NCBI GenBank assembly: GCA_020912385.1 | Contig: CP087213.1 | Coordinates: 682,001-746,000 of the forward strand | Direction of reading: 5' to 3' | Source of the DNA: Neofusicoccum parvum | Taxonomy: Eukaryota > Ascomycota > Dothideomycetes > Botryosphaeriales > Botryosphaeriaceae | Length of the DNA stretch: 64,000 nucleotides | Shown: positions 27,881 to 30,882 of the stretch, piece by piece | Position numbering within the stretch: the first letter of the stretch is position 1 | Layout of the letters: every line of letters starts with the position of its first letter | Notes under the pieces: model-generated | What the model was told of the DNA's origin: nothing | The model's database searches: none | The model's input: the letters and a program-made list of their open reading frames with translations, nothing else | Translations under genes and position numbers: made by a program

Positions 27881-28917
27881 GGCTGCTGTGCTTGTGGTGG
27901 CGGTGGTGGAGGGTGCGGCGTGTAGCGGCGGCGTGCGGCGAGCGGGCGTGCTGAGGGTGGCTTTTTTTTGTCGGTGCCGCGGGGGTTGGCGGTGTGGGAG
28001 GCGGGACGCCCAGGCAGTGGTCGGTGGGGTGTGGGGTGCCCGCTGGAGGGGAGGATTGGGGTCGCTGCCGTGGTGGGTGGGCTGGTGGTGGAGGTTTGGC
28101 GCGCAGGTAGCTTGCGGCGAGCTCTCGTGCAACCCTGCCTGGGCCGACGCGGAAAAACTTGGACGAACGCGCCTGTCGGGGCGGCTGCCGTTGGCCGGCC
28201 CAATCCGACGGCGGCATTGCCGCGCGTTAGTGCGATGTTCCATCATCTCGCATGCTTTTTTTTTTGAGGCATATCGACGCTCGTTTCGATGTTGCCCATT
28301 GGCCTATAGTCCTACCTTTTAGGGAAACAACAGTCCCTTCAGCCGGACAGTGTGAGCTGGTCCACCCATCTGATCCAAGGTTTCTACAGCATACGATCAC
28401 TGTCCTACTTTCGTATCATACGCAGGCCACGGTTGCTGCTTGTGCAATCGACACCATCAGTTCGAGACAGGATTGTACGAGAATCAATTCAGAGATAATC
28501 AACTTCAATTGGATTCAAAACACCAGTGCCCTGGACCGTGTATTCACATACTTCTCTGGACAAGGGCGCCAATACTTCCCTTCAGAACCACAGAACGGCC
28601 TCACCAGAAGCACCAAAGCAAACAAAAAGGAAAAACTGCCGAGCACCAAATACACGAAAACACGAACGAATGCAGAGCTTTTCAGCTTTTCGACATTACC
28701 CCCCGAGTATTCCTTTTCCAGCCAACCCCGAACGCACGAATGCAGTAATCAGATGCTCGCAGACGTAGAATACAGGATGCAGTGACCAATGGAAAAGGTC
28801 CGTGAAAAAAGCCAAGGAAGAAGAGGTTCCGCGGAGTATGCAAGGCAAAGGAGAGAGATGAGAGAGCAAATGAAACATCCCGCCCGAAATCAAGGAGAAT
28901 GCAGAAAGTCACAAAGC
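27881..28917. other. prp2 5' flank and antizyme 3' flank
   Basis: This region holds the prp2 promoter and the 3' region of the antizyme gene. The plus-strand frames here (28252-28785 and others) lack family features and lie antisense to the antizyme 3' flank. Confidence 0.5.
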
Positions 28918-29840
28918 TCAAACCTCCATGCCCAAGAACACCCACGCATCACTCACGATGGGCGGCTTTTCAGCCCATTCGGCGAGCGTGATGGGCTCGA
29001 AACCAATCCAGCCGAGGTCCTTCATGAGGCCCTTCATGTCCTCTGGCGCGGCGGCGCGATCGAGGCATACGTTGAGGCGCGCGCACTCGAACTCGTCGAG
29101 GCTGCACAGCTCGATCAGCGCCATCAGGCCCGGCTTGAGGTCGCGCACCGTGGCCTCCTGGTCGAAGAAGACGAACATGGCCTTGCTGTCGCCTTCGCCG
29201 GCCACAAACCCACGGAAGCGCGCGCCGCCGACATAGTCCCAGACCTCGACCCACTGGCTGACGGCGCCGGCCGGCGGGAAGCCGTAGCCGACGGCCGGGG
29301 CCTGGGAAGGCGGCGACGGCAGGCCGATGCCGCTGTCGAAGGAGCTGTCGATCCTCTTGGCGGCATCGTCCATGTCGTGGTATTGGTGGTTGTTGTTCGT
29401 GTTGTACACGCCCAGTGCAAGCGAGTCCTGACGGGCCAAGTTCCCCTCACCAAGGAAAACGGTCCGCAGTGTCTCGCAGAAGAGTCTCTCACACTCTCCC
29501 GCAATGGTGCATGCTGCCCCCCCTCTGCGCGCCACGCCGAGACGCTTCTTGCTGTTCGACGTGCTCAGCTCATCACTGCTGAGGGCATAGGCGGCGAGGG
29601 GGGGACTTTGCGGAGGCGATGGCATTCCCTACAGGCTGTCAGCACATCATTAACGCATCAGCATTCGAGCCTGCACATACCGAGCTGACCTCAGGAACGC
29701 CACTCGGCCCCGCCGGCCCCGGTAGTGGAGTAATGGAAACCCTGGAGCGCCATGGAGGCAGCCTCGACAACGTAGCAGCTGGCCTTCATGGCGGTCCAAT
29801 TACTACTACTACTCGATGATGTACTGGTTCGTTTCGCCAT
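28918..29840 (-). CDS. oaz1: Ornithine decarboxylase antizyme, expressed through a +1 ribosomal frameshift
   Basis: The product is antizyme, which binds ornithine decarboxylase, sends it to the proteasome and so lowers polyamine synthesis. Frame 0 runs from the ATG at 29840 (context CCATGG) for 49 codons, ending AEWRS, then meets UGA at 29693-29691. Slipping one base at UCC-UGA continues as E-V-S-S to 29681. A 52-base intron follows (29680-29629, GTATGT...CTGTAG), and exon 2 (29628-28918) joins in phase 0, giving about 289 residues. Known fungal antizyme features are FHYSTTGAGG in frame 0. In exon 2 they are RTIAGECERLF-like AGECERLFCETLRTVFLGE, WVEVWDYVGGARFRGFVAG, DLKPGLMALIELCS and the end AWVFLGMEV. 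Polyamine-stimulated +1 shifting at UCC-UGA is established for antizymes. An in-frame upstream ATG at 29963 exists but is less likely. Gene callers would start at 29625 and lose the N-terminus. Confidence 0.92.
29691..29696 (-). promoter_or_regulatory. Programmed +1 frameshift site UCC-UGA of antizyme
   Basis: On the minus strand the last frame-0 sense codon TCC (29696-29694) is followed by TGA (29693-29691). Reading resumes one base later as GAG GTC AGC TCG, then the intron. UCC-UGA is the commonest antizyme shift site from fungi to mammals. High polyamine is known to raise shifting, so this is the sensor of the feedback loop. Confidence 0.88.
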
Positions 29841-30882
29841 GGCGGAAATCGGCCACGGTTGTCGATTCGAAGGGGGTTTCAAGGGGGTGGAGATGGGTGA
29901 GGTGGCGAGCAGGTCGCGCGTTCGCAGGCCGGTGTTTGTTCGGGCTGATGGGGTGACGTGCACACGACGGTGACAGCGACGAGCGGCGGGTTGGCGAGCG
30001 GGCGCGGGAGCGTTGGTGGTGCGGAAGGCTGCTGGCTGCTGAGGTGGTGGCAGAGTCGAAGTCCGGAACGAAGGGAAATGAGGAGATTCTTAGCTCGTTC
30101 GGCTGTCATAGGTTGAGTGCGAGCCGTTTCAAGGATCTGCGAGGAGGCTTTGTTTGCGTCACGTGGGCTCGCCTGACCGTTCCGTGGATCGCGGCTCCCA
30201 AGTTCTTCTGCCCTGTCTGCGATCGCCGCCTCCCGGAAGCTTCTGACGGATTCTGTCCCAGGCCCCGGCCTCGCTGCAAGTGCCCTGGAGGTGCTTGATC
30301 TTGAGCGTGCGCAGGGTCGGAGCAGGACGTCGGTGTCGGCAGCCTGAGCCTCGGTGGCAAACCGAACACGAGAGCTGGACCTGCCCAGACCGGGCGACGA
30401 CGCGCGCGAGAGGCAATCGCATGGGAGCATTGACAAATATATGTTAGCAGAGAAAACTCCATTTTATCGTGATATTTTCTGGGCGGCCAAAAGAAACCAT
30501 ATGCTATGCCCACACAGCCATGACCGAAAACAAAAGCGACTGGGTATCTCCAAACACACAAAACTATATGCTAAACCCCAGAAGCCTTTTGAGCATAGGC
30601 ATGCAATCCTGCTAGGAAATGAAAAACCAAGGGGACAGCCCAAGACAGATCTACACCAACTGCGACAACACTCAACCCGGGTCGGAAGTCGCTACCTGGT
30701 TGATTCAGCCTCGTCCGCCTTTGCCAAATGAAACCCACAATTTGAACGCCGATAGCATAATCTCATCTCTTTTCATCAAACGAGCATGTTTTGCAAACCA
30801 ATGCGTACGATGATGTCGCTCGAACACCGACCTGCTAGCCTCCCATCCCAAAAGCAACGAACAAGATAAACGGTGAACAAGA
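29841..30882. other. Antizyme promoter region and frq 3' flank
   Basis: No gene is seen. This 1 kb stretch contains the antizyme 5' region and the end of the frq transcript. Confidence 0.5.

Follow-up and report, generated by a model that had tools for sequence, protein, structure and literature searches.

Known antizyme systems and the present locus

Antizymes curb ornithine decarboxylase (ODC) as well as polyamine uptake, and polyamines in turn promote the ribosomal frameshifting on which antizyme synthesis depends. Both SPA of Schizosaccharomyces pombe and mammalian OAZ1 are expressed by +1 frameshifting at UCC_UGA. Here we analyze an antizyme gene of the fungus Neofusicoccum parvum, located on the reverse strand of a stretch of 64,000 nucleotides (contig CP087213.1, positions 682,001 to 746,000, referred to as the window) within a genome of 43,992,428 bases on 18 contigs. 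According to passages of PMC5009743, UCC_UGA is the antizyme site in a substantial majority of cases, and the UGG that stands two codons before it shows strong conservation. Among filamentous ascomycetes, Botryotinia fuckeliana and Emericella nidulans had their antizymes described by Ivanov et al. 2000, as cited in a 2012 review (PMC3432380) that reports no experimental study on these proteins up to that time. The antizyme of the Agaricomycete Coprinopsis uses UUU-UGA together with an 11-residue peptide at codons -15 to -5, which was shown experimentally and recognized by a kept peptide combined with synonymous variation (PMC4505036); passages of PMC5009743 call the Agaricomycetes the sole bioinformatic example so far of such a nascent-peptide stimulator.

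Gene anatomy and conservation of both frames

Very probably, this is the single antizyme gene of the organism and depends on programmed +1 ribosomal frameshifting for its expression. It consists of two open reading frames (ORFs) and one intron with the following features:

29691..29840, minus strand: ORF1 (frame 0), ATG at 29840, 49 codons (MAKRTS...LQGFHYSTTGAGGAEWRS) followed by UGA
29691..29696, minus strand: shift site TCC TGA, with TCC at 29696-29694 and TGA at 29693-29691; +1 reading skips the T at 29693
29681..29692, minus strand: first four +1 codons, GAG GTC AGC TCG (E V S S)
29629..29680, minus strand: 52-nucleotide phase-0 intron, GTATGT...CTGAC...TAG, donor 10 nucleotides past the UGA
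28918..29628, minus strand: exon 2 with ORF2, the antizyme, starting GGA ATG CCA, 236 open codons and a stop at 28918
28921..29262, minus strand: PF02100 ODC_AZ domain, by profile match and fold match

ORF1 and ORF2 stand in a +1 relation and overlap at the UGA, and the joined reading of ORF1, the +1 codons and ORF2 comprises 289 amino acids. An earlier note on this DNA had proposed the 49-codon frame ending at TCC TGA, the four +1 codons, the intron and the phase-0 junction into a 236-codon exon, all of which were confirmed; its interval 29629-29840 spans ORF1, the intron and the four +1 codons between them, with the antizyme exon lying outside as it had said. Its designation of UCC-UGA as the established antizyme shift site agrees with the passages of PMC5009743. 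UGG is the second codon 5' of the UCC-UGA junction, as in antizyme-type shift sites (codon positions such as -17 and -2 are counted upstream from the shift codon), and within ORF1 two further Met codons lie in frame, at 29789 and at 29753. The intron contains a branch-like CTGAC at 29642 and the acceptor TAG, and its retention would stop the +1 reading after EVSSVCAGSNADALMMC. At its position PEVSS-GMPSPP is gapless in the related database models P0002 and P0010 and interrupted by an in-frame insert in P0011. The link P-E-V-S-S-G, which contains the E V S S of the +1 codons, is present in +1-reading relatives.

The antizyme homology proposed for the 29628-28918 exon was borne out by hmmscan, in which PF02100 matched exon 2 with 141.8 bits (cut-off 24.2) over the full profile (1-114), and exon 2 was the sole match to this family in the 44-megabase genome (143.8 bits). 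ORF2 also matched the antizyme fold. The nearest named ORF2 homologue was that of Diplodia corticola (79%), which places the fungus with or near the Botryosphaeriaceae, as does the 99% identity of P0001; the viral contigs searched held no relative. As judged from sequence and fold, the ORF2 product is an ODC antizyme, which would bind ODC and direct it to degradation.

Upstream of the Pfam domain, ORF2 residues 34-62 (29529-29443) form the highly conserved block RRGGAA.TI..ECERLFCETL..VFLGEG, in which A38, E47, R48, C51 and F58 were invariant among 49 aligned sequences. Beside its one antizyme the genome has three ODC-like PF02784 matches (C14:1333311-1334042, C10:1752259-1752888 and C7:1524336-1524965); the copies on C10 and C7 retain K-x-NPDP and WGNTCDSFD, and the match on C14 contains one TGA that is perhaps intronic.

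With ORF1 alone as query, three frame-0 proteins were found, P0121 (3.6e-9), P0122 (7.7e-9) and P0123 (4.9e-3), whose C-terminal ends (AEWYS, AEWCS and AKWYP, respectively) correspond to the stop position in the window. A search with the ORF1 profile yielded 137 proteins at E <= 1; the frame-0 set consists of the 120 that were fetched, P0121-P0123 being already rows of the profile. Because ORF1 finds frame-0-only homologues both alone and as a profile, these comparisons indicate that it is not a chance ORF. The frame-0 proteins ended in W-x-X in 69/120 cases, in W in 5/120 and otherwise in 46/120, and among the 69 the last residue X was most often S (43), followed by V (15), P (7), A (3) and G (1). 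Variation of the pre-stop residue among relatives is found in the frame-0 proteins P0121-P0240 and in the +1 reads P0082, P0108 and P0119. P0233 (frame 0) and P0003 (ORF2), for which the longest contig has an identical length of 18,705 bases, are probably the halves of one relative's gene, entered as two proteins. In 15 of the 120 (e.g. P0133, P0149 and P0193) a long insert follows the GAGG stretch and precedes the W-x-X end, which suggests that some fungi have a second intron just 5' of the shift site; in a gene with both introns, the shift site would lie in a micro-exon, the skipping of which could bypass the frameshift.

During programmed frameshifting, ribosomes would initiate at 29840, read ORF1 and reach the shift site, UCC then occupying the P site and UGA the A site; there part of them would terminate and the rest would skip the U and continue with GAG in the +1 frame. 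This reading would cross the spliced junction into ORF2 and yield the 289-residue antizyme; high polyamines would raise the shifted fraction, and the antizyme would disable ODC and lower polyamine uptake. The anatomy of the gene, its domain and fold and the conservation of its two frames are shown by the present data, whereas shifting itself, its efficiency and its control by polyamines are inferred.

Treatment of the gene in database models

Among the 120 ORF2 homologues fetched of 279 found, some of them partial or mechanical ORF calls, none contained the correct frameshift junction (W-x-[SPVA]-E-[VA]), and the head, the junction and the polyamine control are therefore missing from annotation. 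By motif, 27 models carried a frame-0 head only, 25 a +1 upstream read only, six both, 21 started at M-PSPP and 41 fell into none of these classes; the initial Met was absent in 6/120, which may be partial. The frame-0 head was accordingly fused to ORF2 without frameshift in 33/120 (a further eight models with a shortened head were left out of this number) and the +1 frame was read upstream in 31/120, with six common to both. Misannotation from the internal Met, correctly placed at 29625, and by an invented intron had both been predicted, and they correspond to the 21 and the 33 models, respectively, while the upstream +1 reading (31/120 by motif) is a third failure that had not been foreseen. 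The description of the gene as invisible to standard gene calling holds for the head and its regulation, which are lost, but was too strongly worded for exon 2, which annotation finds easily.

Alternative explanations

Several results weigh against frameshifted expression of an antizyme or its support. A single-sequence search of solved structures gave no match to ORF2, and a profile search (hmmsearch) matched solved antizymes only weakly (E 0.39-0.99); with so weak a sequence match, it is Pfam and fold that connect the gene to the antizymes of animals. The Rfam antizyme element was absent in 28600-30500, with only a sub-threshold miRNA match. A stem within +6 to +90 (84 nucleotides after the stop) was no more stable than expected in a test of pseudoknot-free folds (z -0.18, 214/500 synonymous controls as stable), and the +10 to +70 region was less stable than most controls (480/500 as stable). 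Finally, frameshift-free joins recur in related models, so that a spliced bypass isoform is possibly real.

The last point touches on the idea that alternative splicing instead of frameshifting, as many models imply, removes the UGA and so fuses ORF2 in frame with the head of ORF1. We consider this improbable as an account of the gene, even though 33/120 models contain such a fusion and certain joins recur: GAECPPLAA in P0033, P0059, P0061 and P0068, GADPPLAAY in P0009 and P0013, GADSGMPSPP in P0006 and P0007, and GAGGG-x-PSPP in five models. The GADPPLAAY join is feasible in the window with the donor GTGGCG, one result of an enumeration that gave 96 in-frame GT/GC-AG joins. However, the 33 joins differ widely, with 29 distinct 14-residue continuations, as expected from gene callers avoiding a stop; the usable GT donors in the window (GTTGTC, GTCGAG, GTTTCC, GTGGCG and GTTCCT) are unlike the GTATGT of the intron; and splicing leaves the W-x-S/P/V/A ends of 68/120 frame-0 proteins unexplained. 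Equally unlikely is frameshift-free translation of the antizyme that begins at the internal Met (29625), with ORF1 as a regulatory upstream ORF. The PF02100 domain lies entirely downstream of 29625 and 21/120 database models use the corresponding start, but this Met is preceded by the three in-frame AUGs of ORF1 (29840, 29789 and 29753), ORF1 ends in the antizyme-type context W-x-S-UGA, and many relatives retain P-E-V as the +1 link. Gene decay or sequencing error, which has nothing in its favor except the break itself, can practically be dismissed and the earlier note was right to reject a pseudogene, because the break is conserved: the identical break and motif occur in many other sequences, ORF2 is intact and P0001 is 99% identical.

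RNA structure around the shift site

A helix was predicted over the shift site from the following arms:

29690..29703, minus strand: 5' arm of the predicted helix of 14 base pairs
29681..29684, minus strand: exon-1 part of the 3' arm, continuing in the spliced RNA at 29628-29619

The 3' arm thus spans the exon junction in the spliced RNA, and before splicing a large part of this 5' arm is predicted to pair with exon 2 across the intron. In the -20 to +40 region, chosen post hoc after the fold had been seen, the helix was more stable than nearly all synonymous recodings (z -3.14, 1/500 as stable); z was -2.38 (5/500) when the site-adjacent codons were kept and -2.05 and -1.83 in wider windows. 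An equally long helix was found in 6/1000 recodings and in 0/298 windows of a neighboring gene. Its role as a classical stimulator is doubtful because the decoding ribosome would hold the 5' arm inside.

A candidate nascent-peptide signal

The conserved part of the ORF1 tail is the following:

29700..29747, minus strand: peptide L-Q-G-F-H-Y-S-T-T-G-A-G-G-A-E-W, codons -17 to -2, candidate nascent-peptide signal

To see whether the +1 upstream reads conceal ORF1, for each of them we sought the compatible DNA that best fitted the frame-0 profile and compared it with 500 shuffles of its own. Decoding favors the family profile by design, a freedom given equally to the shuffles, and the profile was made from 49/120 frame-0 proteins selected because they carry H at codon -13 and W at codon -2, which renders those two columns circular. 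Of 30 +1 candidates two were too short for shuffling, and 11 of the 28 tested beat all 500 shuffles, their decoded peptide being GFHYSTTGAGG(A/V)(E/D)W(R/Y)S or a near variant; P0118 had an off-family decoded start (TPTNYSTTGAGG) and P0046 decoded to KAAGAG where others have GAGGAE. Among the remaining 17 were frame-0-head joins, spurious motif hits, GGFE reads of the Hortaea type and also P0037, P0071 and P0073, which were reached by 6, 2 and 5 of 500 shuffles, respectively, and in which a codon deletion is suspected.

Third bases, derived indirectly from the +1-read proteins and not from the relatives' DNA, were compared between the window and the 11 reads (n=12, two of which, P0010 and P0011 from Phyllosticta, do not differ over this stretch). 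The third base varied at -15, -13, -11, -10, -9, -8, -7 and -4 with the peptide kept in most, codon -14 was TTT for TTC in one read with P0118 aberrant, and changes at codon -3 altered the residue, to D in three reads and to G in one. It was constant in 12/12 at -12, -6, -5, -2 and -1, with -2 being Trp and having no alternative codon. A peptide retained over varying third bases is the kind of pattern from which the Agaricomycete stimulator was recognized (PMC4505036).

We tentatively propose, as a minority possibility drawn from these patterns, that the Pezizomycotina (filamentous ascomycete) ORF1 tail L-x-G-[FL]-H-Y-[SC]-T-T-G-A-x-G might act as a nascent-peptide stimulator, perhaps a polyamine sensor, within the exit tunnel during decoding of UCC-UGA, beside the nucleotide element GGC GGG ... 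UGG NNU and independent of the Agaricomycete case. Against this stand the loose spacing (4/120 frame-0 proteins are off by one or two codons) and the invariant third base at -12, as well as the indirect derivation of third bases from proteins; moreover, the peptide may be kept for the sake of the mature protein. The pattern provides a handle on whether nascent-peptide control of antizymes exists beyond mushrooms.

Comparison with known systems

The gene resembles S. pombe SPA and mammalian OAZ1 in its two overlapping frames, UCC-UGA, UGG as the second codon 5' and the antizyme domain and fold. It may differ from both in its intron donor 10 nucleotides after the stop, and no 3' stimulator was recognized in it. 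S. pombe has P-A-G-G-A around codons -8 to -5, where this gene has G-A-G-G at -8 to -5. In contrast to Coprinopsis, the site is UCC-UGA and a nascent-peptide role would be only inferred. With the antizymes described from Botryotinia fuckeliana and from Emericella nidulans it shares its origin in a filamentous ascomycete. Because UCC_UGA with UGG is usual for antizymes and ascomycete antizymes were described in 2000 according to PMC3432380, this gene is an ordinary member of its family, a known kind of gene that the earlier note had read correctly.
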